Counted from the stretch's first letter, positions 21,781-37,882 are shown. The stretch is 64,000 nt of DNA from Spirochaeta africana DSM 8902 (GCF_000242595.2 NC_017098.1:124001-188000); one strand, 5' to 3'. Numbers and translations are program-made. The notes: a model not told the origin generated them from the letters alone.

Positions 21781-23502
21781 CTAATCGAGTGACCAGGCCG
21801 CGCTGGCTGCTGCGGCAAAATTGCCGCTCAGGCGGCCGTCCTGCAGGGTCAGGCCGCTGTTGTCATCGAACAGCAGCTCGCCGTCCTGCCAGTCGCCAGG
21901 CAGCTCGACATCGACCGAGGGGGTGTCGTCGCCCAGATTGACCGCTGCCAGGGTGGTCTCGCTGTTATAGCTGCGCAGAAACACCAGGGTGCGATCAGCG
22001 GTTGACAGCATGGTGTAGTCTCCGCGGCGCAGGCTCACCCGGCTGTGGCGCAGGGCGGTCAGGTCGCGATGCAGATTCAGCAGGCTGTCGGGATCGCTGT
22101 CCTGGGCTTCCATCATCTCCCACTCGAAGGGCTGGCGATGGCGGCGGTCGGCGTGACTGGCGCCGCCAAACTCGGCAGCATCCTCCATGCCGATCTCGTT
22201 GCCGTAATACAGGTACGGGGTGCCGGGGCCCATCAGCTGCACAGCAACGACCGAGCGGACCTCGGGTTCACCATGAACACTGATAGGACGGTTTACCACG
22301 TTGTCATGGTTGGACAGAAAGGTTCCCATCCAGGCGTCTTCGTGCAGATCCTCGGTAACCCAGTTCCAGTGATTACTGAGCTGGAAAGGTATCCGGTTGG
22401 CGGCCGCATAGGCAAAGGGAAAGTCCAGGGTCATGTGAAATCCCAGGTTGCCGTCCTCGTCTACCATGTAGCGCTCCAGGCTGGCGTGGCTGCTGGTCCA
22501 GTTCTCGGCGACCATGAACTTGTGAAAGGCATCGCCGTCGCTGTCGGTGTGGGTGCCAAACTCGTCCAGGATCTGACTGCGGATGGCCTGAAAGTACTCG
22601 AAGTTCTCGTCCTCATCCTCGTACCCGCCGCGGATCGAGCGTTCGTCCTCGTACATGTACTTCATAGCGTCCACCCGCATGCCGTCGAAACCGCGGTTCA
22701 GCCAGTAGATTGCCACGTCGGTCATGGCATCCTTGGCTGCCTGATGGCGGAAGTTGATGTCCGGCATGCCGGACCAGAACACGCCGTAGTAGTAGCGGCC
22801 ATTGCTGTGGCGGTGCCATACCTGCTGCCCCCAGGGACCGTCCTGGCTGCCAGGCTCGTCGCGCCATACAAACCAGTCCTCGCGATCGTTCTCGCCGGCG
22901 GCCGACTCGATAAACCAGGGGTGCTCGTTAGAGATGTGATTGGGAACCCAGTCAAAGATGACCCGAATCCCGCGCGCATGCGCTTCGGCCAGCAGTTCAT
23001 CCAGGTCTTCGTTGGTGCCGAAGCGTGGATCGACGGTGTAGTGATCCGTGGTGTCATACATGTGCAGGTTTATCTCGGTGCTGGCTGACTCGAAAAAGGG
23101 TGAGAGCCAGATGCCGGTAATCCCGAGATCCACCAGGTAGTCCAGCTTCTCGGTGATGCCGGGGATGTCACCGATGCCGTCGCCGGTGCTGTCGTTAAAG
23201 GCGTTGATCCAGATGTGGTAAAACACCGAGTCTTTGTACCAGTCGGCATCCGCGGCAGCCAGGCTGCGGTCGGGGTCGGGCTGGATGGGCGACAGATCAC
23301 GAAAATGTGATGGTGAGGGCGAGGGGTCGTCGATCGCGGCCAGGGGGGCGTGATCGGGAGCGGGGGCCTCGAAGCTGCGTTCCGCAGGCGAGGCGCAGCC
23401 AATGGCCAGGCTGATCAGCAGCAGGGAACCGAGCGCCCCGGCTGCCGTGAATACGCGCGCTGCCGGCGCGCGCCCGTTACTCAAGCTAAAAAACATACGC
23501 AT
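21781..23502 (-). CDS. GH13 alpha-amylase-family lipoprotein
   Basis: A 573-aa envelope GH13 enzyme. Start at 23502 (MRMFFSLSNGR) because GGAAGG lies just upstream; 23517 is also possible. The signal peptide ends at lipobox SLAIGC. A Pro/Asp-rich spacer runs to about residue 90, then the GH13 barrel: WYKDSVFYHIWINAF, GIWLSPFFESAS, VIFDWVPNHIS, GMRVDAMKYM (catalytic Asp), MVAENWTSSHAS (acid/base Glu), TFLSNHDNVVNR (Asp). The C domain ends ASAAWSLD. It acts on alpha-glucans outside the cytoplasm. Divergent from the ABC transporter operon. Nothing links it to sulfoquinovose. Confidence 0.9.
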   Translation of the reverse strand: MRMFFSLSNGRAPAARVFTAAGALGSLLLISLAIGCASPAERSFEAPAPDHAPLAAIDDPSPSPSHFRDLSPIQPDPDRSLAAADADWYKDSVFYHIWINAFNDSTGDGIGDIPGITEKLDYLVDLGITGIWLSPFFESASTEINLHMYDTTDHYTVDPRFGTNEDLDELLAEAHARGIRVIFDWVPNHISNEHPWFIESAAGENDREDWFVWRDEPGSQDGPWGQQVWHRHSNGRYYYGVFWSGMPDINFRHQAAKDAMTDVAIYWLNRGFDGMRVDAMKYMYEDERSIRGGYEDEDENFEYFQAIRSQILDEFGTHTDSDGDAFHKFMVAENWTSSHASLERYMVDEDGNLGFHMTLDFPFAYAAANRIPFQLSNHWNWVTEDLHEDAWMGTFLSNHDNVVNRPISVHGEPEVRSVVAVQLMGPGTPYLYYGNEIGMEDAAEFGGASHADRRHRQPFEWEMMEAQDSDPDSLLNLHRDLTALRHSRVSLRRGDYTMLSTADRTLVFLRSYNSETTLAAVNLGDDTPSVDVELPGDWQDGELLFDDNSGLTLQDGRLSGNFAAAASAAWSLD

Positions 23503-23573
23503 AGTACCTTCCTTCATAGGGTAAACCGTTTCAGCAGTCAGCCTACCGTGACCCGGAAAAAAAATCCAGTGGA

Positions 23574-23626: not shown

Positions 23627-23655
23627 TTGACAGCAGAGAAGGTGCGTGTTTTACT
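23627..23655 (+). promoter_or_regulatory. sigma70 promoter of the ABC importer/isomerase operon
   Basis: Perfect TTGACA (23627-23632), 17-bp spacer, TTTACT (23650-23655). The -10 box and start point are overlapped by operator A. Confidence 0.65.
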
Positions 23656-23675
23656 TACTTATAGAAAGAAACTAA
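23651..23675 (+). promoter_or_regulatory. operator A: candidate ROK repressor site
   Basis: Dyad TTACTT-N5-AAGAAA at 23655-23671 inside a 25-bp block that matches operator C (29704-29728, other orientation) at 20 of 25 positions by my count. It covers the -10 box and the start point, so binding should repress. Ends 11 bp before the start codon. Confidence 0.65.
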
Positions 23676-23686
23676 GGAGGGAGCGT

Positions 23687-24946
23687 ATGGGTACGTCACG
23701 ATGGCTGCTGATGGCAGCGGCGGTGGTGTTGGTGTTTTCGCTTGCGACCGGTTGTGCCGGGGATGCTGACGAGGAGATTGTGCTGACATGGCCAAGTATC
23801 TGGGTTGGTCAGGACTCCAAGGCCGAGGCGGTCGAGCAGATTGTCAACGAGTTCAACGAGGAGCATGCCGGTTCCATCCGGGTGGTTATCGAGCCGCAGT
23901 ATGATTACGACGGCTACGAGGATACAATCCGCACCCGACTGGCAGCCCGGCAGGTGCCGGATATTTTTACCTTTAAACTGAGTCCGACTACCGCTGCCTA
24001 TTACGAGGGTGATCTGCTGATGGATCTGACCGATGCGCTGGCCGGCGGCTGGGGAGATGACTTTAATCAGGGCAATATCGATGCCTCGACAATCAATGGA
24101 GCTACCAAGTCGCTGCCCTATGAGATCGGGCTGACCCCGGTATGGTATAACCAGCGGCTGTTTGAGCAAGCCGGAATCAGTGAATTCCCGCGCACTATAG
24201 ATGATTTCTGGGCGGCGGCTGATGCATTGAAGGCAGAGGGGATTGTGCCGACCAGTCAGATGACCGGGGGTACCAATGCCTGGACCAGCATGCTGTGGTA
24301 CACCCATCTGGTGGGCAGTTTTGGCGGGCCGAATGCCTGGGACCGACCCTGGGATGATCCGGTGTTTGCCGATGCCGCGGCGGTACTGAAGCAGATGTAC
24401 CAGGATGGCAATACTACCCGCGATGCAATCGGTGCCGATGCCGGGGTATCCGGTGGGCACTACATGAACGAGCGTACCGCCATGTTTATCAACGGCCCCT
24501 GGTTTATCGGTAACATCCGTGACAACGCCCCGGCAGCGTACGAGGCCACCGCCCTGGCACCGGCTCCGCAGGCTGGTGACTACCACGGGCATCAGGTGGG
24601 CTGGCTGCATGCAAACCTGGCGGCGGCTCACACAACGGACGAGGCTCGCCGTGACGCCGTGATCACCTTTTTACAGTATTTTACCAGTCCGGAGAACGCC
24701 AAGCGGGTATCTTTGAGCTCGGGCTCACTGGTGTCGATCGAGTTCGAGGTGGGGCCGGATGATGATGTTGACCCGCTGCAGCAGGCCTTTATCGAGGCGG
24801 GTAACCAGTCGACATTTCTGATTGATCATCTGGAGGCCAGCAAGAGCTCCACAGTGGTGGCCGAGTTTGGCCAGGCACTGGGGCAGATGGTACTGGAGGA
24901 TCTGTCGCCACAGGAGTTTGTAGCAATGCTGCGGGATGCCGAGTAA
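23687..24946 (+). CDS. ABC transporter sugar-binding lipoprotein
   Basis: A 419-aa family-1 extracellular solute-binding protein. ATG at 23687 follows AAGGAGGG. Signal peptide with lipobox SLATGC puts the lipidated Cys at 23. The body is typical: LTWPSIWVGQDSKAEAVEQIVNEF, VPDIFTFKLSPTT, GLTPVWYNQRLFEQAGI, MTGGTNAWTSMLWY, AMFINGPWFIGNIRD. It feeds the two permeases downstream. Operator A and the neighbouring isomerase suggest sulfoquinovose or a sulfoquinovosyl glyceride as ligand; this is inference from context, and ordinary sugars cannot be excluded. Confidence 0.88.
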   Translation: MGTSRWLLMAAAVVLVFSLATGCAGDADEEIVLTWPSIWVGQDSKAEAVEQIVNEFNEEHAGSIRVVIEPQYDYDGYEDTIRTRLAARQVPDIFTFKLSPTTAAYYEGDLLMDLTDALAGGWGDDFNQGNIDASTINGATKSLPYEIGLTPVWYNQRLFEQAGISEFPRTIDDFWAAADALKAEGIVPTSQMTGGTNAWTSMLWYTHLVGSFGGPNAWDRPWDDPVFADAAAVLKQMYQDGNTTRDAIGADAGVSGGHYMNERTAMFINGPWFIGNIRDNAPAAYEATALAPAPQAGDYHGHQVGWLHANLAAAHTTDEARRDAVITFLQYFTSPENAKRVSLSSGSLVSIEFEVGPDDDVDPLQQAFIEAGNQSTFLIDHLEASKSSTVVAEFGQALGQMVLEDLSPQEFVAMLRDAE

Positions 24947-24959
24947 GCGCACCCAGAAC

Positions 24960-24999
24960 AGCCGTCGTGCCGCTATACGGTACGGCGGCTTTCTTTTCT
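24960..24999 (+). terminator. terminator-like attenuator hairpin after the binding-protein gene
   Basis: Near-perfect 13-bp stem (24960-24972 with 24978-24990, two mismatches) and 5-base loop, followed by a T-rich tail TTTCTTTTCT. It lies between the binding-protein and first permease genes, where partial termination would give the usual excess of binding protein. Confidence 0.6.
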
Positions 25000-25028
25000 G
25001 CGGCGTCTGCCGCCGGTCGGAGACCACC

Positions 25029-25928
25029 ATGAAGAAGAACCTGCATTTCAAGAATCGTAATCTGCGCTGGATCGTGCTGTTCCTGCTGCCGATCGCGCTG
25101 CTCTACGGTGCCTTTTTTATCTATCCGCTTGTTTCCCTGGCGGTGATCAGCATGATGGAGTGGAACGGGATTTCCGCCATGGAGTTTGTGGGGCTGGACA
25201 ACTTCCGGCACTTGTTTGCCCATTCCACCTTTCAGACGTCGATTCGCAACAATGTGATCTGGGCACTGTCGGCCTCGCTGCTGCAGATACCGTTTGCCCT
25301 GGTCGTGGCAATGGTGCTGGCACGGGCGCCCCGGGGCTGGCGGTTTTTCCGGACGGTGTTCTTTCTGCCAAACGTAATATCGCTGGTGGCCCTGGCAATG
25401 CTGTGGCGGGCCATGTACAACCCCGAGTTCGGGGTGATCAACAGCTTTCTGGAGGCGGTGGGGCTGGAGCACCTGACCAGAAACTGGCTGGGTGAGCTGA
25501 ACACCGCCCTGCCGGCACTGATCATTTCCTACCAGATCTATGTCGGCTATTTTATGGTGATTATTCTGGCCGGGGCTATGTCGATTCCCAAGTCGCTGTA
25601 CGAGGCGGCGATGCTGGATGGCGCCAATGTGATTCAGCAGGAGGTGTACATCACCCTGCCGGTAATCCGGGGGATTATCGTGACCGCGGGGACCCTGGCG
25701 GTGGCGTTTGCGCTACGGCAATTTGAAACCACCTTCCTGATGACCGGCGGCGGGCCGGCCAATCGCACCCCGGTAATGGGGTTGTTTATGTACCGGCGTA
25801 TGGCAGGGCTGCAGTACGGCCTGGCCGCGGCTACCGGGGTGGTGTTGATTATTGTCGGGGTGGTGGTGCTTACCGCGCTCAAACAGACGGTGGGGCGCTC
25901 GGATCCGATCGAGGATATGAAGCAGTAG
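25029..25928 (+). CDS. ABC sugar permease, MalF-like
   Basis: A 299-aa inner-membrane permease with about six helices. ATG at 25029 (MKKNLHFKNRNLRWIVLFLL) is chosen because upstream in-frame sequence includes the attenuator hairpin and lacks membrane character. The EAA loop EAAMLDGANVIQQEVYITLP near 196-215 contacts an ATPase. No ATPase gene is present in this cluster, so a shared MsmK/UgpC-type subunit encoded elsewhere is implied. Second gene of the operon. Confidence 0.9.
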   Translation: MKKNLHFKNRNLRWIVLFLLPIALLYGAFFIYPLVSLAVISMMEWNGISAMEFVGLDNFRHLFAHSTFQTSIRNNVIWALSASLLQIPFALVVAMVLARAPRGWRFFRTVFFLPNVISLVALAMLWRAMYNPEFGVINSFLEAVGLEHLTRNWLGELNTALPALIISYQIYVGYFMVIILAGAMSIPKSLYEAAMLDGANVIQQEVYITLPVIRGIIVTAGTLAVAFALRQFETTFLMTGGGPANRTPVMGLFMYRRMAGLQYGLAAATGVVLIIVGVVVLTALKQTVGRSDPIEDMKQ

Positions 25929-25940
25929 GAGGTCAGCAGG

Positions 25941-26795
25941 ATGAAAAATGCAGTGAATCAAACCCCGATCCCGGTTGTCTATGGGAGCCTGGCGCTGAAG
26001 TGGGGGTTGCTGATCGGCTATACCGTAGTGGCACTATTTCCGCTGATCTGGCTTACGGTGTCGGCGTTCAAGACCAACCTCGAGATTCAGATAGCCCCGT
26101 TTGCCCTGCCGGAGACCTGGCAGTATCGTAACTTTATCAACGCGATTACGATCTCCGGTCTGCCGCGCTACTTTCTGCATTCAGCGATTGTAGCGACCCT
26201 GGCTACCGGGCTGAATCTGCTGGTTACCTCGATGGCGTCGTTTGTGATTGCCCGCGAACGGTTTCTGCTGCGGCGGGTGATATTTATCATGATAACTGCC
26301 GGGGTGCTGGTGCCGATCGTGGCATTTATGGTGCCGTACTACACCCTGATCACCCGTTTGCGGCTGTATGACACCCTGTGGGCGTTGATTGTGACCTATG
26401 CAGCGATCAACATCCCGATATCGGTGTTTCTGATTACCAGCTTTATGTCTACCATTCCACGCGAGCTAGAGGACTCGGCGGCCATTGACGGCTGCAGTTT
26501 CTGGCAGCGCTACTCCCGGATAATCCTGCCGCTGTCGCGGGCCGGGCTGGTGACAGCGGCCACCTTCAGTTTTATCTACTGCTGGAACGAGTTCGTGTAT
26601 GCCTTGTTGCTGACCTCCTCGCGGAGTGCGCGCACGGTACAGCTGGCAATCCGCTTTTTTACCAGTCAGTTTCGAACCGATTATGCCGGGATGTTTGCCG
26701 CAATTGTGCTGACCATGGTGCCGACGGTTTTGGTGTACACCCTGCTGCATGACAAGATCATCTCCGGATTGACCGCCGGGGCCGTGAAAGGCTAG
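25941..26795 (+). CDS. ABC sugar permease, MalG-like
   Basis: A 284-aa permease 12 bp after its partner, with AGGAGG upstream. About six helices. EAA motif EDSAAIDGCSFWQRYSRIILPL near 178-199. It ends LTAGAVKG, typical of the MalG/UgpE side of CUT1 importers. It forms the heterodimeric channel with the preceding permease. Confidence 0.9.
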   Translation: MKNAVNQTPIPVVYGSLALKWGLLIGYTVVALFPLIWLTVSAFKTNLEIQIAPFALPETWQYRNFINAITISGLPRYFLHSAIVATLATGLNLLVTSMASFVIARERFLLRRVIFIMITAGVLVPIVAFMVPYYTLITRLRLYDTLWALIVTYAAINIPISVFLITSFMSTIPRELEDSAAIDGCSFWQRYSRIILPLSRAGLVTAATFSFIYCWNEFVYALLLTSSRSARTVQLAIRFFTSQFRTDYAGMFAAIVLTMVPTVLVYTLLHDKIISGLTAGAVKG

Positions 26796-26817
26796 TTGCT
26801 GACACAAGGAGCTGCAG

Positions 26818-28242
26818 ATGAACAACACACAACCACAGATATGGCCGGCAGCGCGCACTGCCGGGGTGATTCAGGACCCGAAGGTCGGGCTGATGATTAT
26901 GGGACGCAAGCGCCCGGGGTTCGACCCTGAATGGGGCGCGGCTGTTCGTCGGGCGGTACAGGGGTACCTGGAGGGACTGCCGTTCGGGTTGACCGTGCCG
27001 TCGGATAATATTGCTGACGAGGCTGAGCTGCAGCGGGCGGTCGAGGTTTGCCGGACTGCCGGGGTTACGGTGATGCTGCTGGTACAGCCGACAATCTCGG
27101 ATGGGAGGCTGGCACCGATGCTGGCGCGGCTGTGGCAGCGACCGCTGCTGCTGTGGGCGACTACCGAGAAGCCCGGGGTGAGCAGTATAAGTGCCAACTC
27201 GCTCGTCGGAACCCATGTGATGGCGGCCACCCTGCGACAGCTGGGGCATCCGCTGGAGCTGGTGTTCGGGCATCCGGAGGATCATGAGGTCTGCAACCGG
27301 GTCGAGCAGTCGATCCGTGCGGTGCATGCTGCCGACAGTCTGCAGCGGCGTAAACTGGGGCTGGTGGGATATCATGCCCCGGGGTTTGTGGATTTCCATG
27401 CCGATCCGGTGTTTCTGCAGCAGCAGCTGGGCTCCCAGCTGTATCATCTGAACACCCCTGAGCTGATGGATATGGTTATGGCCTATACGAATCAGGAGCT
27501 CGAGGACGAGTGTGCAGCTTTTCTGGCATGGCAGCTGCCGGTGGCGCGGTCGGCGCAGGCTGCCGGTTTTTCTGCAGACGCCAGGCAGGAGCTGCTGTTC
27601 CAGGCCCGTTACTATCGGGCGTTTCGCGATCTGTTCGATCTGGAGGGGTTCGATGCCATGGCGTTTCGCTGCTGGCCGGATCTGCCAACGGTTCTGGGGC
27701 ACTGGCCCTACGCGGCTCTGGCGCGGCTGGTGTCCGAGGGGTTTCCGATTGCGATGGAGGGTGATGTTGACGGGGCGTTGTGTTCGCGGCTGGCCGAGAG
27801 TGCCGGGATGGGGCCGGTGTATCTGTCCGACTGGCTGGAGCATACCGCCGACAGCATCACGATCTGGCATACCGGTGCGGCCCCGCTGCAGCTGGCCAGA
27901 CCGGCAGGGGTGCCCGGCGGTCCGGAGCTGGGGGTGCAGTTTAACAACAAAAAGCCGACGGTTATCGAGTCGACCATTCGTTCAGGTATGAAGGCAACCC
28001 TGTTCCGTTTGTGGCGCTGCGGTGGGGGTTATCGAATAACCGCGCTGGAGGGTGAGACAATCGACCCTGCACGGCATATCGAGGCTACCAACGGGGTGTT
28101 TTCTACCGACCGGGTCGATGTACGGCGCTGGTTTGAGGATATGGTGCAGCTGGGCATGCCGCATCATGTCTGTCTGGTCGAGGGGCATGTCGGGGACACC
28201 CTGCGCCGGATTGCCCGCATGATCGGTGCTGCCTGGGTGTAG
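26818..28242 (+). CDS. L-fucose/arabinose-isomerase-like protein, putative sulfoquinovose isomerase
   Basis: A 474-aa cytoplasmic protein after AAGGAGC, last gene of the ABC operon. The fold matches L-fucose isomerase-family proteins: VGLMIMGRKRPGFD early, FDAMAFRCWPDLPTVLG, MEGDVDGALCSRLAESAG (metal-ligand region), a late IWHTGAAPLQLA and a C-terminal MPHHVCLVEGHV. SqvD/SftI-type sulfoquinovose isomerases belong to this kind of aldose isomerase (recalled knowledge). Expected reaction: SQ to 6-deoxy-6-sulfofructose, feeding the transketolase operon across the ROK gene. It could act on another aldose; the operator shared with the transketolase promoter is the main argument. Confidence 0.75.
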   Translation: MNNTQPQIWPAARTAGVIQDPKVGLMIMGRKRPGFDPEWGAAVRRAVQGYLEGLPFGLTVPSDNIADEAELQRAVEVCRTAGVTVMLLVQPTISDGRLAPMLARLWQRPLLLWATTEKPGVSSISANSLVGTHVMAATLRQLGHPLELVFGHPEDHEVCNRVEQSIRAVHAADSLQRRKLGLVGYHAPGFVDFHADPVFLQQQLGSQLYHLNTPELMDMVMAYTNQELEDECAAFLAWQLPVARSAQAAGFSADARQELLFQARYYRAFRDLFDLEGFDAMAFRCWPDLPTVLGHWPYAALARLVSEGFPIAMEGDVDGALCSRLAESAGMGPVYLSDWLEHTADSITIWHTGAAPLQLARPAGVPGGPELGVQFNNKKPTVIESTIRSGMKATLFRLWRCGGGYRITALEGETIDPARHIEATNGVFSTDRVDVRRWFEDMVQLGMPHHVCLVEGHVGDTLRRIARMIGAAWV

Positions 28243-28284
28243 CCGGCGCCAGCACGGGTCAGATGTCGCGTTATCAGGCCAGGA

Positions 28285-29502
28285 TCACCTGGTTCCCGGC
28301 TGGCCGGGATTCTCCTGGATGTCGGTGCCGGCGGCCAGCTCCGGGCGGCAGTGAAAAAACTCCCGGAACACGATGTCGGTGGCGCCATAACAGGCCTGCA
28401 CCGGGTCGTACACCATCGGCAGCAGCCTGCTTTCCGGGAGGACTGCGCGAGCAGAGTCTTCCAGAAACCTCGAGAGTGCCGGAAAGCGGGAGATCAGCAG
28501 AACCGCATCGGGGTGAAAGATGTGGTAGAGGTTGCGCACCGTGGTGGCGAATGCCAGCTGCTCCTCATGCAGGGCGCTGTTTATTTCGGCCGGCGAGAGA
28601 CGGCTGTCGGCTTCATTCCAGTCACCAACCGCGTAGCGCTGCTGTAGGCGGTTCAGCAGGGGGGCTTCGGCCACCATCGATTCCAGGGTGGCGCTGTCGG
28701 CCAGCAGCTGCTCGGGTGTGCAGGGGCTGGGGCTGGTGCTGCCGATCTCCAGCGCGGTGGTGCTGCCGTTCAGGAAGATCTCGCCGCCCTTGACCAGTGC
28801 GCCCCCGATCCCGGAGCGCACCAGGATAGCAAGCACACTGCGCTCCTCGCGTGCGCAGCCGTAATGGTATGCGCTGGAGGCGATTACCGAGGCGTTGTTG
28901 TGCACATGTACCGGAACCTCGAAGCGCTGTTCCAGGCGCTCCTTGATGGAGTAACCGCTCAATCCCTTGATGCGTGCATAACGCTGAACCCGCCCGGTGG
29001 CGGTGTCGACCACCCCCGGTGCTGCCACACCGATGCCGAGCAGGGCCTCTTCGGGGAGCCTGCTGTCCTGCAGGGCGGTCTGCAGCAGCTGTTCGAGGAT
29101 CTCCATGACCTGTTCGCGCTCGCTGATACCGGATAATTCCATACTGTTGCGATAGATCACGGTGTTGGAAAAATCCACTGCGATGACAGCTGCGCCCAGA
29201 CTGGAAAAATCGATCCCCAGGGCGTATCCGGAGGTGGGGTTAACACAGTACAGGTTGGGGCGTCGCCCTTTGCGATCCGGGGGGATCCCCTGGTCGATGC
29301 TGGCGCTGTCCTCGCACTGGCTGATAAACCCGGCCTCGCTGAGCTTGGCGAAGATCCGGAAAACAGTAGGTGCTTTCAGGCCGGTGTGTTTGACCACCAT
29401 GGACTGGGAAATAGTGCCGTGCTGAAAGGCCAGCTGAAGTATCAGGCGCTCGTTGTTGAGCCGAATGTCGGTATGTCGGATCGGTCTGCGTTTCATGGGC
29501 AT
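28285..29502 (-). CDS. ROK-family transcriptional repressor
   Basis: A 405-aa regulator. N-terminal winged HTH (NNERLILQLAFQHGTISQSMVVKHTGLKAPTVFRI). ROK domain from about residue 88 (GYALGIDFSSLGAAVIAVD, GIGVAAPGVVDTATGRV). The kinase Asp of the usual NDANAAA motif is Asn here (VHNNASVIAS), and the zinc CxCGxxGC motif is absent (only SPSPCTPEQLL), so it should bind sugar without phosphorylating it. Starts at 29502 or 29496. Operator B abuts the start codon, implying autorepression. It lies between the two operons it is proposed to control and converges on the isomerase gene. Confidence 0.9.
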   Translation of the reverse strand: MPMKRRPIRHTDIRLNNERLILQLAFQHGTISQSMVVKHTGLKAPTVFRIFAKLSEAGFISQCEDSASIDQGIPPDRKGRRPNLYCVNPTSGYALGIDFSSLGAAVIAVDFSNTVIYRNSMELSGISEREQVMEILEQLLQTALQDSRLPEEALLGIGVAAPGVVDTATGRVQRYARIKGLSGYSIKERLEQRFEVPVHVHNNASVIASSAYHYGCAREERSVLAILVRSGIGGALVKGGEIFLNGSTTALEIGSTSPSPCTPEQLLADSATLESMVAEAPLLNRLQQRYAVGDWNEADSRLSPAEINSALHEEQLAFATTVRNLYHIFHPDAVLLISRFPALSRFLEDSARAVLPESRLLPMVYDPVQACYGATDIVFREFFHCRPELAAGTDIQENPGQPGTR

Positions 29503-29519
29503 TTTCTTTCGTTAAGTAA
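29503..29519 (-). promoter_or_regulatory. operator B: ROK autoregulatory site
   Basis: TTTCTT-N5-AAGTAA, matching the 17-bp core of operator A at 15 positions. It starts directly at the ROK start codon and overlaps the -10 box on the minus strand. Confidence 0.62.
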
Positions 29520-29544
29520 TACGGGTAAGAATAGCATAAACCAA
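29516..29544 (-). promoter_or_regulatory. putative promoter of the ROK gene
   Basis: Minus strand: TTGGTT (29539-29544), 17 bp, TATTAC (29516-29521). The -10 box overlaps operator B. Confidence 0.5.
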
Positions 29545-29589
29545 TTGACGATGCTACGGGGTGCCGGCGGAGCCGGGGCAGGCGGAAAC

Positions 29590-29625
29590 GGGGCAGGGGG
29601 AGCGGGGCAGGGGGAGCGGGGCGGG
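29590..29625 (+). repeat. G-tract tandem repeat with G-quadruplex potential
   Basis: A 14-bp unit (GGGGCAGGGGGAGC) occurs twice and begins a third time. Six G runs of 3-5 are separated by loops of 1-3 bases (CA, AGC, CA, AGC, C), satisfying the standard quadruplex pattern. It sits between the ROK and transketolase promoters. Confidence 0.7.
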
Positions 29626-29670
29626 CGATGCCGGGACAGGCGGAACCCTGCGGCAGCGACACATTTTTCC

Positions 29671-29699
29671 TTTACAGCCTATCCGGGCTGTGCTACACT
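29671..29699 (+). promoter_or_regulatory. sigma70 promoter of the sulfoglycolysis operon
   Basis: TTTACA (29671-29676), 17-bp spacer, TACACT (29694-29699) with an extended TGC just before the -10. Followed at once by operator C. Confidence 0.7.
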
Positions 29700-29703
29700 C
29701 TCT

Positions 29704-29728
29704 TTAGTTATTTTCAGTAAGAAAGTAA
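29704..29728 (+). promoter_or_regulatory. operator C: candidate ROK repressor site
   Basis: Dyad TTATTT-N5-AAGAAA at 29709-29725, inside GTTATTTTC-N5-GAAAGTAAC (29707-29729; one mismatch between arms). It covers the predicted start point of the transketolase operon. Confidence 0.65.
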
Positions 29729-29759: not shown

Positions 29760-30599
29760 ATGACAGCGAACGAAATTCGTGAGTTGCAGCAGAAGGCCGT
29801 CGAGATACGTCGGCTGACTGTGGATGAGATAGCACACCTGGGCGTCGGGCATGTTGGCGGCAGTATGTCGGTGGTAGAGATTCTGACCCTGTTGTACTAC
29901 CGGCACTTGCGGGTAAACCCGGCCGAGCCGCGTGATCCGAAGCGCGACAAGCTGGTGATGTCCAAGGGACATGCCGGACCGACACTGTATGCAATCCTTG
30001 CCGATAAAGGTTTTTTCCCGAAAGAGATGCTGCATACCCTGAATCAGGGGGGCACCAATCTGCCAAGCCATTGTGACATGAATCGGACTCCGGGGATCGA
30101 TATGACAACCGGTTCCCTTGGCCAGGGGCTTTCGGCGGCCATCGGGATTGCGCTGGGGCATCGGCTGCAGCAGCTGCCGGGACGAATTTTTGCGCTCATT
30201 GGCGACGGCGACCTGAATGAGGGGCAAACCTGGGAGGCTGCAATGTCGGGAGCGATGTTCGGGGTTACCAATCTGGTGGCCTTCGTGGACTACAACAAGA
30301 TGCAGATTGACGGCCCGATCGACTCGGTCATGAAGACCGGTCAGCTGGCGCAGCGCTGGGAGAGTTTCGGCTGGCACACCCAGCAGGTGAACGGGCATGA
30401 TTTTGCCGAGCTGGATGCAGCGCTGGAGGCTGCCCTGGCACAGTCCGAGCGCCCGGCCATGATTATCGCGGATACGGTCAAGGGCAAGGGTCTGCCGTTT
30501 GCCGAGGGCGACTACAAAAATCATAACATGCCGATTACCGATGAACAGGCGGCAGAGGCCTACGCGGCCCTGCAGCAGGAGATGGAGGCACTGTCATGA
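29760..30599 (+). CDS. sqwG: transketolase N-terminal subunit, putative 6-deoxy-6-sulfofructose transketolase
   Basis: A 279-aa half-transketolase carrying the thiamine-diphosphate site: GDGDLNEGQTWEA (148-160) through VDYN (N179). Active-site histidines are H31 (GHVGGS), H71 (SKGHAG) and H104. The last lies in NLPSHCDMNRTPGID, where ordinary N-terminal subunits read GHPDM, so the sugar-binding edge differs. First gene of the 11-gene operon, overlapping its partner by 4 bp. In the known sulfo-transketolase pathway SqwGH moves C2 units from sulfofructose, and again from sulfoerythrulose, to glyceraldehyde-3-phosphate, giving xylulose-5-phosphate. Role assigned from context; enzyme family is certain. 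Confidence 0.85.
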   Translation: MTANEIRELQQKAVEIRRLTVDEIAHLGVGHVGGSMSVVEILTLLYYRHLRVNPAEPRDPKRDKLVMSKGHAGPTLYAILADKGFFPKEMLHTLNQGGTNLPSHCDMNRTPGIDMTTGSLGQGLSAAIGIALGHRLQQLPGRIFALIGDGDLNEGQTWEAAMSGAMFGVTNLVAFVDYNKMQIDGPIDSVMKTGQLAQRWESFGWHTQQVNGHDFAELDAALEAALAQSERPAMIIADTVKGKGLPFAEGDYKNHNMPITDEQAAEAYAALQQEMEALS

Positions 30600-31564
30600 A
30601 ATACAAGATAACACGAGCACAGGCAGCTGAGGGTGTCGAGATGCGCGCGGTATACGGTGAGTGTCTGCTGGAAATGGCGGCAAAGGATGAGCGGATAGTG
30701 GTGCTGGATGCGGATCTGATGCGCGCCAACGGGACGGTGGTGTTTCGGGAGGCCTATCCCGAGCGGACATTCGATGTCGGGGTGGCCGAGGCCAACATGG
30801 TCGGGATATCGGCCGGGCTGTCGGCAGCCGGATTAATTCCGTTTCCGGCAAGTTTCACCTGTTTTGCCGCTCGGCGCACCTTTGACCAGTTTTTTATCTC
30901 TGCCAATTATGCGCAGCTGAATGTAAAACTGACCGGTACCGATCCCGGGGTGGCAGCAGCCTTTAACGGCGGGACACACATGTCGTTCGAGGACATCGGG
31001 CTCATGCGGACCATTCCGGGGCTGTTGATATGCGAGCCGAGCGATCCGGTAAGCCTGGCCCGGCTGCTGCCGCAGATTGCAGCCCGGTACGGATCGAGCT
31101 ACCTGCGGCTGCATCGCAAGCCGATTGTCCCCATCTACGACGAGGACGAGCAGTTTGAACTGGGCAAGGGTAAGCTGGTGTGCGAGGGCAGCGATCTGAC
31201 GATTGTAGCTGCCGGAGCGATAATGGTTGCCGAGGCAATCGAGGCGGCCGAGGTGCTGGATTCTCGTGGGATATCGGCAGCGGTAATCGATATGCACACG
31301 ATCAAACCGATAGATGCCGAGCTGCTGCTGCAGCAGGCCAGAAAAACCGGTGCGGTGCTGACCGCCGAGAATCACCAGATTATGGGTGGGCTTGGCAGTG
31401 CGGTGGCCGAGGTCCTGGTTGAGGGATATCCCGTGCCGATGCAGCGTATCGGGATTCAGGATGAGTTTGGCGAGGTCGGAACCCAGGGCTATCTGCAGAA
31501 GCGCTTTGGACTGACGGCCGATCGGGTTGCCGCAGCTGCCGAGCAGCTGGTGGCACGCAAGTAA
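30596..31564 (+). CDS. sqwH: transketolase C-terminal subunit, putative sulfofructose transketolase partner
   Basis: A 322-aa second half, starting within the ATGA of sqwG. The pyrimidine-binding domain has the essential Glu65 in VGVAEANMVGISAGL, followed by the FTCFAARRTFDQF segment. The C-terminal transketolase domain ends near GLTADRVAAAAEQLV. The split two-gene form resembles both DXPS-like transketolases and known SqwGH pairs. It makes the active site together with the N-terminal subunit. Confidence is high for the family and moderate for the sulfonated substrate. Confidence 0.85.
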   Translation: MKYKITRAQAAEGVEMRAVYGECLLEMAAKDERIVVLDADLMRANGTVVFREAYPERTFDVGVAEANMVGISAGLSAAGLIPFPASFTCFAARRTFDQFFISANYAQLNVKLTGTDPGVAAAFNGGTHMSFEDIGLMRTIPGLLICEPSDPVSLARLLPQIAARYGSSYLRLHRKPIVPIYDEDEQFELGKGKLVCEGSDLTIVAAGAIMVAEAIEAAEVLDSRGISAAVIDMHTIKPIDAELLLQQARKTGAVLTAENHQIMGGLGSAVAEVLVEGYPVPMQRIGIQDEFGEVGTQGYLQKRFGLTADRVAAAAEQLVARK

Positions 31565-31581
31565 TTTCCGGGAGGTAGGTA

Positions 31582-32073
31582 ATGGGACGCAAAATAACCG
31601 TAGCGGTAGCCAGCGATAAATCCGGCTTTCCACTGAAGCAGGCAGTGGTCGAGTACCTGCGTGGTCGCGATGACATAGAGGTGCTTGATTATGGTCTGGC
31701 CAGTCTGGAGGAGAACGAGCCCTATCATGTGCAGGCTGCCAAGGTGGCCAGAGCGATTCAGGCCGGCACGGCCGAACGCGGGGTGCTGATCTGCGGTACC
31801 GGTCAGGGCGTCGGTATCGTAGCCAACAAGTTCAAGGGGATCTACGCGGTGGTCGCGGATACCATTTTTGCGGCTGAACGCGGTCGGATAATCAACGACG
31901 CCAATGTGGTTACCATGGGTGGCTGGATAACCGCCCCGCGATTAGGGGTGGAGATTGTTCGCAGCTGGCTGGCTACCGGCTTTACCGAAACCATGGAGGA
32001 TCGGGCCGAGTGGCTCAAGGCAGCATTCGGCAAGGTGCAGGAAATCGAGGCGGAGAATTTTCGCGATGAGTGA
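31582..32073 (+). CDS. sqwI: RpiB/LacAB-like isomerase, putative sulfoerythrose isomerase
   Basis: A 163-aa RpiB-fold protein after GGGAGGTAGG. The catalytic Cys is kept (ICGTGQGVGIVANKF, Cys71). Residues usual for ribose-5-phosphate are changed: the DHxGF motif reads SDKSGF (Lys13 for His), the His of (S/R)xHND is Ile (GRIINDANV), and the C-terminal GGRHxxR phosphate-binding segment is missing (ETMEDRAEW). This fits a substrate lacking the phosphate, as expected for SqwI, which converts 4-deoxy-4-sulfoerythrose to sulfoerythrulose. Overlaps the next gene by 8 bp. Confidence 0.78.
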   Translation: MGRKITVAVASDKSGFPLKQAVVEYLRGRDDIEVLDYGLASLEENEPYHVQAAKVARAIQAGTAERGVLICGTGQGVGIVANKFKGIYAVVADTIFAAERGRIINDANVVTMGGWITAPRLGVEIVRSWLATGFTETMEDRAEWLKAAFGKVQEIEAENFRDE

Positions 32074-33475
32074 TGATGCAGGATATATAGCCGAACTGGT
32101 TACCCGGGCGCGCCGGGCGCAGGAGCAGATTGCCGACTACACCCAGCAGCAGATCGATGATGTCTGTCTGTCGGTCGGCTGGGAGGTGTACGAGGACCGC
32201 AACATCGCCGATCTGGCCCGGGTGGCGGTCGAGTCGTCCGGTATGGGCAACGTGCCGGACAAGATCACCAAGCACAAGGTCAAGGTGCTGGGGGTCCTCA
32301 AGGATCTGAAGGGCGCAATAAGCGTGGGCGAGATTTTCCGTGATCCCGGTCGGGGGATTACCAAATACGCCAAACCGGTCGGGGTGGTGGGTGCCCTGCT
32401 GCCGGTAACCAATCCGACGGCCACTCCGGCCAGCAACGGCCTGTCGATTTTGAAGGGGCGCAATGCAGTGATTTTTGCACCCCATCCCCGGGCAGCTGCT
32501 GCCAGCAAGCTGGCGGTCGAGTATATGCGCCAGGGGCTGAAGCGGGTCGGCGCACCCGAAGATCTGGTACAGATTACCGAGGAGCCTTCGATCGGACGCA
32601 CCGGGGAGCTGATGAAGCAGGTCGATCTGGTGGTTGCCACCGGGGGCGGTGCGATGGTCAAGGCGGCATACTCCAGTGGTACCCCGGCGTACGGGGTGGG
32701 GCCGGGAAACTCGGTGCAGATTATTGCCGAGGACGCCGATCTGCCGGATGCGGTTGCAAAGATTGCCCTGAGCAAGGTCTTTGATTACGCCACCAGCTGT
32801 TCCAGCGAGAACAGCGTGATCATTCATCAGGATCTGTACGAGCAGGCGGTTGCCCGGTTCGTAGAGCACGAGCATTCGTATCTGATTCAGGGCGAGGAGC
32901 GTGAACAGCTTGAGCGCTGGATGTGGCGACCGAACAAGCATGGGGTGCCCGGTTTGAATCCGGCCATCATCGCCCAGAGTGCAGTCAGGATCGCTGCCGA
33001 TGCCGGGATCCAGGTGCCCGAGGAAACCCGGATCCTGCTGGTGGAGGGCAGGGATCCGCTGGAGCAGGATCACTTTGCCGAGGAGAAGCTCTGTCCGGTG
33101 CTGACATTGTATCGAGCCAGGGATTTTGCCGAGGCGGTCGATCTGCTGACCCGGCTGACAGACAATGCCGGTACCGGTCACTCCTGTGGTATCCATACCT
33201 TCAGGTCTGAGTATGTGCATGAACTCGGGATGCGGATGCGTACCAGCCGGATTATGGTGCGACAGGCCCAGGCACCGGCTAACGGCGGCAACTTTTTTAA
33301 CGGCATGCCCAGTACCGTTACCCTTGGCTGCGGCACCTGGGGGGGCAATAGCACCACCGAGAACATCAACTACCGGCATTTTCTGAATGTGACCTGGGTC
33401 AGTGAACCGATTCCGGTCGAGAAACCCAGCGACGAAGAGATGTGGGGTGATTTTCACTCCCGGTATCCCGGGTAG
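32066..33475 (+). CDS. sqwD: CoA-acylating aldehyde dehydrogenase, putative sulfoacetaldehyde dehydrogenase
   Basis: A 469-aa member of the EutE/AdhE-N family. Start at 32066 (MSDDAGYIAELVTRA), inside the sqwI end; the longer upstream frame is a shadow of sqwI. Motifs: GVVGALLPVTNPTATP, DLVVATGGGAMVKAAYSSG, GVGPGNSVQII and the thiol site YATSCSSENSVI (Cys245). It lacks the Glu general base of non-acylating enzymes, consistent with acyl transfer to CoA. In this operon it should oxidise sulfoacetaldehyde to sulfoacetyl-CoA with NAD(P). No microcompartment shell genes or ethanolamine/propanediol enzymes accompany it, so a EutE/PduP role is unlikely. Confidence 0.83.
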   Translation: MSDDAGYIAELVTRARRAQEQIADYTQQQIDDVCLSVGWEVYEDRNIADLARVAVESSGMGNVPDKITKHKVKVLGVLKDLKGAISVGEIFRDPGRGITKYAKPVGVVGALLPVTNPTATPASNGLSILKGRNAVIFAPHPRAAAASKLAVEYMRQGLKRVGAPEDLVQITEEPSIGRTGELMKQVDLVVATGGGAMVKAAYSSGTPAYGVGPGNSVQIIAEDADLPDAVAKIALSKVFDYATSCSSENSVIIHQDLYEQAVARFVEHEHSYLIQGEEREQLERWMWRPNKHGVPGLNPAIIAQSAVRIAADAGIQVPEETRILLVEGRDPLEQDHFAEEKLCPVLTLYRARDFAEAVDLLTRLTDNAGTGHSCGIHTFRSEYVHELGMRMRTSRIMVRQAQAPANGGNFFNGMPSTVTLGCGTWGGNSTTENINYRHFLNVTWVSEPIPVEKPSDEEMWGDFHSRYPG

Positions 33476-33494
33476 GCAAAGACAAGGAGCTGTT

Positions 33495-34721
33495 GTGAGA
33501 TTACTTGAGTATCAGGGAAAGGACGTGTTCCGTCGTGCCGGTCTGGCGGTGCCGCAGGCGCGCCTGCTGACGGTCGAGTCACCCGGGCAATGCGCCGAAG
33601 CGGTCCGGACCGCAGCCGGGGAACTGCTGCAGACCGGTGGCGCCGAACATGATGCAAAAAAGCCGGCAACTGCCGGTGCCGGACCGGACGCCGCGGAGCC
33701 GGCAACTGCCGGTGCTGCCCGGGTTGTGGTAAAGGCGCAGGTGAACATGGGGGGGCGCGGCAAGGCCGGGTTGATCAAGCTGGCCGACAGCCCGGATACA
33801 GCAGCCGCGGCGGCTGCAGAGATCCTGGCGACCCCCTACAGCGTGCCCCGGCTGCTGGTCGAGGAAGCGGTTGATCTTGAACGTGAACTGTACCTCTCGA
33901 TCTCGCCGGATGCCGGCAGCGCCCGCTTTATCGTTCTGGCGTCGCTGGAAGGCGGGGTGGAGATCGAGGAGCTGGCCAGGGAGCGCCCCGATGCAATCAA
34001 GCGGCTGTCCATTGATCCGATCGCGGGACTGCAGCCGTACCAGAGTCGGGAACTGGCGTATGATCTGGGGCTTGCCGGCGATGTTGCCAGACAGTTTGCC
34101 CGTCTGGTTGCCGCCCTGTACCGCGTGTTTCGCGACAACGATGCCGAGCTGGCCGAGATCAACCCGGTATTCCTGACGCGCGACGGCAGGCTGGTGGCCG
34201 GGGATGCCAAGCTGATTATCGATGACAACAGTCTGGACCGGCAGCCGCAGTTCGAGATAAGTCGCGAGCAGTTCGAGTCGGATGCGGCCTATGAGTCCGC
34301 CCTGGAGGGGATACCCTATGTGCAGTTTGATGGGGATATCTCGTTGATGTGCGCAGGGGCCGGTCTTACCACCACGGTTTATGACCTGGTGAATTTCGAG
34401 GGCGGTACTGTCGCCAACTATCTGGAATTCGGCGGGCCAAACTATCACAAGGCACAGCGGGCCATGGAGCTGTGTCTGCAGAACCGCAGCAAGGTGATCC
34501 TGGTGGTGACCTTTGGCACGATTGCCCGGGCTGATGTAATGGCCGACGGGGTGGTAGAGGCCATCCGTAATCTTCAGCCCGATCGCCCGATCGTCACCTG
34601 CATTCGCGGTACCAACGAGGAAGCAGCCGAACAGACCCTGCGGGCGGCCGGACTGGAGCCACTGTTCGATGCCGAAGAGGCGGTTCGCACCGCCGTAGCG
34701 CTGGCCCGGGAGAGAGCATAA
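33495..34721 (+). CDS. sqwK: ATP-grasp ADP-forming acyl-CoA ligase beta subunit, putative sulfoacetate-CoA ligase
   Basis: A 408-aa SucC-like protein. GTG start at 33495 follows AAGGAG. It opens MRLLEYQGKDVFRRAGL, with ATP-grasp motifs VVVKAQVNMGGRGKAG and LAEINPVFLTRDGRLVAGDAKL and a C-terminal CoA-ligase region (LMCAGAGLTTTVYDLVNFEGG). A roughly 27-residue Ala/Pro-rich insertion (about 48-75) contains PATAGA twice and interrupts the normal N-terminal strand order. Pairs with the next gene. Expected reaction: sulfoacetyl-CoA + ADP + Pi to sulfoacetate + CoA + ATP. A housekeeping succinyl-CoA synthetase role is disfavoured by the operon. Confidence 0.8.
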   Translation: MRLLEYQGKDVFRRAGLAVPQARLLTVESPGQCAEAVRTAAGELLQTGGAEHDAKKPATAGAGPDAAEPATAGAARVVVKAQVNMGGRGKAGLIKLADSPDTAAAAAAEILATPYSVPRLLVEEAVDLERELYLSISPDAGSARFIVLASLEGGVEIEELARERPDAIKRLSIDPIAGLQPYQSRELAYDLGLAGDVARQFARLVAALYRVFRDNDAELAEINPVFLTRDGRLVAGDAKLIIDDNSLDRQPQFEISREQFESDAAYESALEGIPYVQFDGDISLMCAGAGLTTTVYDLVNFEGGTVANYLEFGGPNYHKAQRAMELCLQNRSKVILVVTFGTIARADVMADGVVEAIRNLQPDRPIVTCIRGTNEEAAEQTLRAAGLEPLFDAEEAVRTAVALARERA

Positions 34722-35602
34722 TGAGCATTTTTGTACAAAAGAACACCCGTATTCTGGTTCAGGGCATTACCGGTAAGGAAGGCAGTTTCTGGACCAATCA
34801 CATGATCGAGATGGGGGCCCGGGTTGTTGCCGGGGTTACCCCCGGCAAGGAGGGTGAGCAGATACACGGGGTGCCGGTCTATCACACCGTGAAACGGGCC
34901 TGTGCTGCGGTTCGACCGGATGCGGCAATGCTGTTCGTGCCGGCCCGCTTTACCAAAGATGCGGTCTTCGAGGCGCTGGATGCCGGTATTCGCCGGATCG
35001 TAACCATTGCCGACGGGATCCCGCTGCATGATCAGGTGGCGATCCGGGCGGCGGCGGTTGCAGCCGGGGCCCAGGTCGTGGGCGGTAACACCTCCGGAGT
35101 AATCTCGCCTGGGGTTTCGATGATGGGCATCTTCCCGTACTGGATTGATCGGGTCTACAAGCCCGGTCGTATCGGGGTCATGACCCGCTCCGGCTCACTT
35201 ACCAACGAGGTCACCTCGATGATCGTGCGCGGAGGCTACGGGGTATCGACCCTGATCGGGGTAGGCGGGGACCCGGTGCCGGGAACCAGATTTGCCGAGT
35301 TTCTGCCGGAGTATGAGCGCGATCCGGACACCGACGCGGTGGTGATTGTGGGTGAGCTTGGCGGCACCATGGAAGAAGAGGTCGCCCAGGCAATTGCAGA
35401 CAAGCGCTTTACCAAGCCGATGGTGGCCTTTATTGCCGGACGCACCGCACCCGCCGGCAAGAAAATGGGGCATGCCGGGGCGATTGTTACCGGCGGTACC
35501 GGCTCGGTAGCGGATAAAACATCGGCGCTCACCGAGGCCGGCGGGTATGTCGCCATGCGACCGCGGCTGGTGGGCGAACTGTTGCGGGAGGCGCTGGCAT
35601 GA
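34721..35602 (+). CDS. sqwL: ADP-forming acyl-CoA ligase alpha subunit, putative sulfoacetate-CoA ligase
   Basis: A 293-aa SucD-like protein starting on the last base of the preceding stop (TAATG). CoA-binding loop QGITGKEGSFWTNHM (residues 14-28) and the phosphorylated His251 (KKMGHAGAIVTGG) are intact. The region that in SucD reads GPNCPGxITPG is GGNTSGVISPG here (121-131), and RSGTLTYE is RSGSLTNE. These changes lie in the CoA/acyl site region and support an acid other than succinate. It is coupled to the DASS transporter gene by a 4-bp overlap. Confidence 0.82.
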   Translation: MSIFVQKNTRILVQGITGKEGSFWTNHMIEMGARVVAGVTPGKEGEQIHGVPVYHTVKRACAAVRPDAAMLFVPARFTKDAVFEALDAGIRRIVTIADGIPLHDQVAIRAAAVAAGAQVVGGNTSGVISPGVSMMGIFPYWIDRVYKPGRIGVMTRSGSLTNEVTSMIVRGGYGVSTLIGVGGDPVPGTRFAEFLPEYERDPDTDAVVIVGELGGTMEEEVAQAIADKRFTKPMVAFIAGRTAPAGKKMGHAGAIVTGGTGSVADKTSALTEAGGYVAMRPRLVGELLREALA

Positions 35603-37062
35603 GCGGCATCGAAAAACAGAGCTCGCTGCGCCGGCAGTACTTCTTTCTGGCCCTGGCCTGTCTGATACTCCTGGCGATGGTGCTGGTTCCCATGCCGGAG
35701 TCAATCACCCAGGTGGATAATGCCGAGCTTACGCCTGCCGGGCAGATCGCCATGGGGGTACTGCTGTTTGCCCTGGTGCTGTGGATTACCGAGGTCATCC
35801 CGTTTCATATTACCGGGCTGATGGCGGTGATCCTGCTGGCGCTGCTGCAGGTAGACACCTTCCAGGAAATCGTGATGATCGGGTTCGGGAATCATATCGT
35901 GGTGTTTTTTATCGGGGTGCTGACCCTGTCGGCCTTTATTACCCACTCCGGTCTTGGCAAGCGAATCTCGGTATTTCTGCTGTCAAAAACCGGCAACAGC
36001 ACCGCCATGATCCTGCTGGGATTTCTGACTGCCGGTGCCCTGCTGTCGATGTGGATTACTGACATGGCCGTGGCGGCGATGCTGATGCCGCTGGGGGTGT
36101 CGATCCTGCGCGAGGAAGGGCTGAAGCCCCTGAAAAGCAACTTCGGGCGGGCCCTGATGATCTCCTGCTGCTGGGGGCCAACGATCGGCGGGATCGGGAC
36201 CCCCGCTGGAGCGGGGCCCAACCCGATTGCGATACAGTTTATGGCCGATATGGCCGGTATCAATGTCTCGTTTATCGATTGGATGAAGTTTGGTGTGCCG
36301 TCCGCGCTGCTGCTGCTGCTGCCGTCCTGGGGACTGCTGCTGCTGTTTTTCAAACCTGAGTTGAAGCGCCTGACCCGTACCAGCGAGGAGCTGCGCGAGG
36401 AGTTTCGCAAACTCCCGCCGATGGAGCAGGAGGAAAAAACCACCCTGGTGCTGTTTGTGCTGACGGTTATCCTGTGGCTTACCACCCCGCTGTGGGAGCG
36501 GCTGCTGGGGATTCCCATCCCGATCTCCCTGCCGGTCATGCTTACCGGCTGTCTCTTCTTTCTGCCGGGGCTGACCGGTATCAGCTGGAAAGAGGTACAG
36601 GGAGAGATCTCCTGGAGCGGGATCCTGCTGATCGTAACCGGGATCTCTCTGGGGATGATGCTCTACCGGACCGGCGCTGCCAACTGGCTCTCGGTGGTGC
36701 TGCTTGGCGGGATAGGCGGGCTGGGGCGCTATCTGCAGATATTTTCGATTGTCCTGATCGTATCGTTTCTCAAGGTGGCCTTCTCCAGCAACACCGTAAC
36801 CGCGACCATCATCATTCCGATCATGATTGCCCTGGCGCAGAATCTGGGGCTGGATGTGGCCGCAATCACCATTCCGGCCGGGCTTACCGCCTCGATGGCG
36901 TTTATCCTGGTTACCTCTACCCCGACCAATGTGATCCCGTACACCGCCGGCTATTTCTCTATCAAGGATCTGGCGATCGCCGGCATTGCGATGACGATTG
37001 TGTCATCGTTTATCCTGGCGCTGGTAATTATGGTGGTATTGCCGATTTCGGGGTTATCATGA
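35599..37062 (+). CDS. DASS (SLC13)-family anion transporter
   Basis: A 487-aa inner-membrane protein with about 11-12 helices. Signature motifs of divalent-anion symporters are SSNTVTATIIIP (about 396-407) and the TPTNVIPY near 447-454. The first substrate motif region reads TPAGAGPNPIA. The family carries dicarboxylates, sulfate and related anions. Located directly after the ligase genes, it is a candidate for sulfoacetate release or for uptake of a sulfonate or counter-anion; direction cannot be read from sequence. Confidence 0.85.
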   Translation: MSGIEKQSSLRRQYFFLALACLILLAMVLVPMPESITQVDNAELTPAGQIAMGVLLFALVLWITEVIPFHITGLMAVILLALLQVDTFQEIVMIGFGNHIVVFFIGVLTLSAFITHSGLGKRISVFLLSKTGNSTAMILLGFLTAGALLSMWITDMAVAAMLMPLGVSILREEGLKPLKSNFGRALMISCCWGPTIGGIGTPAGAGPNPIAIQFMADMAGINVSFIDWMKFGVPSALLLLLPSWGLLLLFFKPELKRLTRTSEELREEFRKLPPMEQEEKTTLVLFVLTVILWLTTPLWERLLGIPIPISLPVMLTGCLFFLPGLTGISWKEVQGEISWSGILLIVTGISLGMMLYRTGAANWLSVVLLGGIGGLGRYLQIFSIVLIVSFLKVAFSSNTVTATIIIPIMIALAQNLGLDVAAITIPAGLTASMAFILVTSTPTNVIPYTAGYFSIKDLAIAGIAMTIVSSFILALVIMVVLPISGLS

Positions 37063-37089
37063 TGAGCATGTGGCCCGCAGGCGGTGCCC

Positions 37090-37824: not shown

Positions 37825-37829
37825 CTGCA

Positions 37830-37861
37830 GCAGCGGGTGGCGGCGTAGCCAAACCCGCTGC
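37830..37861 (+). other. intercistronic hairpin between TauE and GPH genes
   Basis: Perfect 9-bp arms GCAGCGGGT and ACCCGCTGC around a 14-base loop, with no T run. It may mark RNA processing or stabilise one half of the long transcript. Confidence 0.5.
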
Positions 37862-37882
37862 GCCGGGTAAAAGGAGCGGATG

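Follow-up and report, generated by a model that had tools for sequence, protein, structure and literature searches.

The window analysed here is a stretch of 64,000 nucleotides from Spirochaeta africana DSM 8902 (NC_017098.1:124001-188000), and all positions are counted from its first letter. It carries two groups of genes on the plus strand and, between them on the opposite strand, a gene for a ROK-family protein, as follows.

23687-24946, + strand, solute-binding protein of a carbohydrate ABC transporter (Pfam SBP_bac_1, 1e-31)
25029-25928, + strand, ABC permease 1 (Pfam BPD_transp_1)
25941-26795, + strand, ABC permease 2 (Pfam BPD_transp_1)
26818-28242, + strand, sulfoquinovose isomerase-like protein of the SqvD/SftI type (NCBIfam SftI, 2.3e-46, 158 bits; equivalog cut-off of 700 not reached)
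28285-29502, - strand, ROK-family repressor, the proposed regulator, with a winged helix-turn-helix (HTH) and a ROK domain (Pfam ROK)
29760-30599, + strand, SqwG, N-terminal half of a transketolase (Pfam Transketolase_N, 2.5e-52)
30596-31564, + strand, SqwH, C-terminal half of a transketolase (Pfam Transket_pyr, 1e-33; Transketolase_C, 1.2e-30)
31582-32073, + strand, SqwI, RpiB-like isomerase (Pfam LacAB_rpiB, 1.3e-37)
32066-33475, + strand, CoA-acylating sulfoacetaldehyde dehydrogenase-like protein of the SauS/SqwD type (NCBIfam SauS, 1.1e-157, 525 bits; cut-off 600)
33402-34721, + strand, SucC-like subunit of an ADP-forming CoA ligase of the SqwKL type (Pfam ATP-grasp_2, Ligase_CoA; start codon uncertain)
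34721-35602, + strand, SucD-like subunit of the same ADP-forming CoA ligase (Pfam CoA_binding, Ligase_CoA)
35599-37062, + strand, DASS-type anion transporter (Pfam Na_sulph_symp, 1.8e-55)
37084-37824, + strand, TauE/SafE exporter (Pfam TauE, 6.6e-21)
37880-39790, + strand, GPH-family sugar:cation symporter (Pfam MFS_2, 7e-71)
39777-41822, + strand, sulfoquinovosidase YihQ, GH31 (NCBIfam PRK10426, 868 bits, above the cut-off of 553; PDB YihQ, 4e-205)
41819-42544, + strand, DUF4867 protein, a conserved companion of the cluster (Pfam DUF4867, 4e-69)

Operon 1 comprises the binding protein, the two permeases and the sulfoquinovose (SQ) isomerase-like protein, and operon 2 runs from SqwG through the DUF4867 protein (29760-42544). 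Each is taken as a single operon because of gene order and close spacing. A preliminary description of this DNA had assigned the locus to sulfoquinovose, a sulfosugar of plants, and the SQ-isomerase-like, SqwGHI-like, SauS-like, SucCD-like and YihQ-like genes bear this assignment out. The five members of the sulfoacetate set of the sulfo-transketolase (sulfo-TK) pathway, i.e., SQ isomerase, SqwGH, SqwI, the acylating dehydrogenase and the ADP-forming CoA ligase, were all found by family match (5/5), the SftI and SauS matches lying below the NCBIfam equivalog cut-offs. Judged from these families, the regulated pathway is the known sulfoacetate-forming sulfo-TK variant, with predicted activities on sulfosugars.

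Three genes of the region call for a separate remark. The DUF4867 protein lies beside sqw genes in about 26 loci of relatives and is a candidate for an uncharacterised SQ gene. In the GPH symporter, an insert of about 120 residues splits the family match in two, and the matches of relatives are split likewise. A gene for a GH13 alpha-amylase-like lipoprotein (21781-23517) is divergent from the ABC operon, its start lying 134 bp from the first of the operators described below. It was considered as a regulon member and rejected, none being present at that place in the other loci scanned.

Each of the three transcription units is headed by a palindromic site, referred to as operators A, B and C, and by a promoter.

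23627-23655, + strand, operon 1 promoter, TTGACA (23627-23632), 17 bp, TTTACT (23650-23655), read from the sequence and overlapped by operator A
23651-23675, no strand, operator A, 25 bp, TTACTTACTTATAGAAAGAAACTAA, core at 23655-23671 and a second core, overlapping it, at 23651; precedes operon 1 (ABC transporter and SQ isomerase)
29503-29519, no strand, operator B, TTTCTTTCGTTAAGTAA, exact dyad, abutting the ROK start codon
29516-29544, - strand, putative weak ROK promoter, TTGGTT (29544-29539), 17 bp, TATTAC (29521-29516), proposed by eye only
29671-29699, + strand, operon 2 promoter, TTTACA-17-TACACT, from the consensus scan (9/12 matches)
29704-29728, no strand, operator C, TTAGTTATTTTCAGTAAGAAAGTAA, core at 29708-29724 with one mismatch (TTATTT)

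The common dyad TTnCTT-N5-AAGnAA, with TTATTT in C, was confirmed at all three places. The agreement of A and C at 20 of 25 positions, claimed in the preliminary description, is obtained only when C is reverse-complemented; on the same strand it is 19 of 25. A genome-wide motif search had been set beforehand as the test that could overturn the proposal of a regulon, and the motif proved not to be common. Over the whole genome (3,285,855 bases), the only two places with the exact core TTNCTTNNNNNAAGNAA are A and B, and a reversed-pattern control of this core occurs nowhere in the same 3.29 Mb. When the 25-mer TTANTTNCTTNNNNNAAGNAANTAA was searched genome-wide, A matched with no mismatch and C with one, and apart from these two nothing was found with fewer than three mismatches. 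The only further matches, at three mismatches, were one in a frame that overlaps C and three elsewhere, at unrelated positions. A and C are therefore the two best places for the 25-mer in this genome, well outside what chance would give, the control with shuffled windows having a mean of 0.02. Allowing one mismatch in the core yielded 38 places genome-wide versus 44 for the control, so that C is unremarkable by its core and is singled out only by its longer arms and by the relatives. By the same comparison, weak sites elsewhere are attributed to chance, and we claim no further member of the regulon. Finally, a profile built from 54 sites of relatives, with the window excluded, was run over the whole S. 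africana genome. Only three matches came out at E<=10: A with an E-value of 7.9e-5, C with 0.00125 and B with 0.72.

The operators lie close to the elements of their promoters, though not all in the way first described. The preliminary description had placed each of them on a -10 box or start point. This holds for A, which overlaps the TTGACA-17-TTTACT promoter, whereas C starts 5 bp past the -10 box of operon 2 (promoter end at 29699, start of C at 29704) and so covers the likely start site instead. Operator B overlaps the putative weak ROK promoter. The operon 1 promoter was not reported by the sigma-70 consensus scan because of its strict -10 rule, the -10 box here having no A at position 2; in place of the scan, we relied on the spacing conserved in relatives. 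In these, TTGACA-like -35 boxes cluster 28 bp before the dyad (18 sqwG promoters and 15 binding-protein promoters), and the promoter at A has the same spacing between -35 box and dyad. With TTGACA 28 bp upstream of the dyad, the -10 box and the start site would lie under a bound repressor, and as far as can be read from the sequence this arrangement is the geometry of repression by occlusion. In several relatives the site at the ROK gene is no more than a few bp away from the start of that gene, as is operator B, whose position against the start codon fits autoregulation. Where the ROK operator is this near to the start codon (29503-29519 in the window, and loci L047, L049, L052 and L102), scant space is left for a leader or a Shine-Dalgarno sequence, and the ROK transcript may have almost no leader. 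The segment 29560-29650, which lies between the promoters of ROK and sqwG, holds G-rich imperfect repeats (GGGGCAGGGGGAGCGGGGCAGG...).

The product of the gene between the operons has the features of a DNA-binding member of its family. Its C-terminal ROK domain was matched above cut-off (Pfam PF00480, 7.7e-18), and MarR-type HTH matches at the N-terminus were weak and below cut-off. An N-terminal winged HTH is absent from ROK kinases. The window protein has such a domain according to a full-length fold match to 5f7q and to Mlc, with N-terminal helices at residues 10-28, 33-40 and 44-56 in a structure predicted with high confidence (AlphaFold pLDDT 90.7). This DNA-binding segment is nearly invariant across orthologs that are 26-58% identical to the window protein. 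In the pocket region, N202, N203 and E252 are invariant in both ortholog alignments, which makes a sugar ligand likely; SQ is the simplest candidate, sulfofructose or another intermediate being equally compatible. The zinc motif CxCGxxGC with ExGH was not found in the window ROK: in the region of residues 252-279, this protein and its clade have lost the cysteines and the ExGH histidine and kept E252 and G254, and most of the more distant ROK orthologs retain both the cysteines and the histidine. The motif is common in ROK proteins without being universal, so its loss marks a variant and says nothing on membership of the family. Paralogous ROK proteins of 25-26% identity are present in the same genome.

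Orthologs of the ROK protein occur throughout the Spirochaetia. They turned up in the order and the class to which the window belongs, as well as in 75 named loci, nearly all of Spirochaetota, including Sphaerochaeta, Treponema and Breznakiella. One locus, L150, lies in a bin labelled Clostridiales (Firm_16) and is complete; its ROK nests among Sphaerochaeta-like spirochaetes, reflecting either horizontal transfer or mis-binning. The dyad was counted in distinct upstream stretches of about 250 bp each. It was present in 53 of 64 such stretches for sqwG, 61 of 81 for the ROK gene and 25 of 34 for the binding-protein gene, with about one expected in each case from shuffled sequences. The last of these counts supports the link between the ABC/isomerase operon and the transketolase operon that had been drawn from the window. 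Operon-internal genes have no dyad, or next to none, upstream of them (SqwI, 0/56; SucC, 0/33; SucD, 0/33; permease 2, 0/35). It also precedes some SauS (5/29) and isomerase (10/26) genes, as expected where such genes head a unit of their own, and the dyads mark operon heads. Upstream of the ROK gene in Rectinema and its kin, a small ROK clade without SQ neighbours, no convincing dyad was found. The genomes compared are mostly MAGs and are related by descent, so that the counts are not independent and p-values are to be read loosely.

The coupling of the dyad to the ROK gene was evaluated in 44 genomes that have a sqwG homolog with sufficient sequence upstream of it, using the best sqwG of each genome. 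The dyad precedes sqwG in 31 of the 32 genomes that have the ROK ortholog versus 2 of the 12 that lack it. Over all sqwG copies, the figures are 31 of 38 versus 2 of 12 (Fisher p = 8.8e-5, among genomes related by descent). In both exceptions without ROK (G093 and G132), the contig ends less than 400 bp upstream of sqwG, at the expected place of the divergent ROK gene, and G123 is the sole genome with ROK that has no site before sqwG. Extra transketolase copies in genomes with ROK never carry the dyad (0/6). A single intergenic region often serves both sqwG and ROK, and the most telling genomes are hence those in which the two are not linked: in four of them (G007, G014, G118 and G142) they are found on separate contigs and the sqwG dyad is perfect, and in G070, which has sqwG and no ROK ortholog, no dyad was found. 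Tested by co-occurrence, the earlier proposal that the ROK protein controls the dyads is thus supported.

The same data bear on the alternative that the dyads are true operators of the regulon bound by another transcription factor encoded elsewhere, the neighbouring ROK controlling something else. Binding of ROK to the dyads is something we infer, and the paralogous ROK proteins would offer other binders. Yet the dyad follows the presence of this particular ortholog, unlinked genomes included, it stands at the ROK gene itself in most relatives (61/81), and its architecture is that of XylR operators, which are bound by ROK repressors. We therefore regard another factor as unlikely. Less likely still, and in our view quite improbable, is that ROK binds the dyads but senses some other sugar, for example a glucoside or a xyloside, the SQ reading of the operons being wrong. 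Sequence does not allow the ligand of a ROK protein to be predicted, and the isomerase, at 158 bits, falls far from the SftI cut-off of 700; against this, SauS-like, SucCD-like, TauE, DASS and YihQ-like genes stand together in one operon, as in the published sulfoacetate sulfo-TK variant (PMC12890257), and ROK is kept beside sqwGHI even where other genes differ. That the three sites are AT-rich promoter elements, -10 boxes with their flanks, alike by chance and without a common regulator is hardly credible: all three overlap or adjoin promoter boxes and one-mismatch cores are not commoner than the control, but exact cores are confined to this locus, a profile from other species finds just A, B and C, and the dyads are missing before internal genes and extra transketolase copies.

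The preferred reading, to which we give a probability of about 0.9, is that the ROK protein (28285-29502) is the local repressor of a three-unit SQ regulon, acting through A, B and C; one ROK-type repressor would thus very probably control the whole SQ pathway. A ROK dimer would bind the palindromic operators and, lying over the -10 box or the start site at each promoter, block RNA polymerase. Bound at A, it would shut the ABC transporter/SQ isomerase operon; at B, its own gene (autoregulation); and at C, the long operon from transketolase to sulfoquinovosidase. The repressor would be released once its sugar pocket holds SQ or a sugar from the early part of the pathway, sulfofructose for example, and this would jointly turn on uptake, SQ glycoside cleavage and the breakdown to sulfoacetate. 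We infer all three of physical binding, repression as opposed to activation, and the inducer. NagC and Mlc are ROK proteins that may also activate or be sequestered, so that repression here is presumed rather than proved. A wider version stands, in our estimate, at even odds: a class-wide ROK of Spirochaetia would sense SQ or sulfofructose in its pocket and control sulfoglycolysis through a XylR-like operator with one symmetric pair changed, and the loss of the zinc site and the pocket histidine in the lineage of the window may be connected with fitting the sulfonate. Across Spirochaetia, these results point to a conserved regulon of three units with a 25-bp operator and a proposed regulator. 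The control of sulfoglycolysis in anaerobes can now be tested directly, and the motif can be used to find more SQ genes.

Among known systems, the E. coli regulator CsqR (YihW) is a member of the DeoR family and hence not a ROK protein, and it serves the sulfo-EMP pathway. Like the ROK protein proposed here, CsqR is a transcription factor acting locally on a cassette of sulfoquinovose genes (PMC10991401). Citing Chu et al. 2023, a review reports the sulfoacetate-producing sulfo-TK variant (SqvD, SqwGH, SqwI, SqwD, SqwKL) from Spirochaetes, Firmicutes and Tenericutes (PMC12890257); the gene content of this variant matches that of the two operons of the window. The words "regulator" and "repressor" are absent from this review, in which control of the pathway is not described (PMC12890257). 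In the literature searched, we found no ROK or XylR regulator of SQ, and for Faecalicatena/Clostridium MSTE9 a "repressor candidate" is mentioned whose family is not given.

At the level of the protein, the closest match of known structure is Lmo0178, an operator-bound ROK repressor of Listeria (PDB 5f7q). It is both the best fold match to the predicted structure (TM 0.78/0.82) and the best PDB sequence match of the window ROK (1.6e-39), although the identity between the two is only 18% and the window ROK is without the CxCGxxGC zinc motif and the ExGH histidine. At the level of the DNA, the nearest likeness is to XylR, which is likewise a ROK repressor of a sugar-catabolic operon, whereas the target genes here are for a sulfosugar and not for xylose. 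XylR sites have GTTT N7 AAAC half-sites (PMC9104551); this pattern was not found at the sites described here, and the exact form TTNGTT-N5-AACNAA is absent from the window. The xyl operator of B. subtilis, TTAGTTTGTTTGGGCAACAAACTAA, consists of two palindromic arms of 10 bp with 5 bp between them (PMC12034463). The sites here are built in the same way, A and C each matching the xyl arms at 16 of 20 positions, but positions 8 and 18 of the 25-mer, a symmetric pair, are always changed, from G..C in XylR to C..G in the consensus here. As a DNA pattern, then, the operator is XylR-like in architecture but is no XylR site. The likeness extends to the overlapping second cores, which are offset from the main core by exactly 4 bp in either direction in 59 of 60 cases and echo the tandem overlapping xyl operators, four bp apart, named in the title of Dahl et al. 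1994 (PMC9104551).
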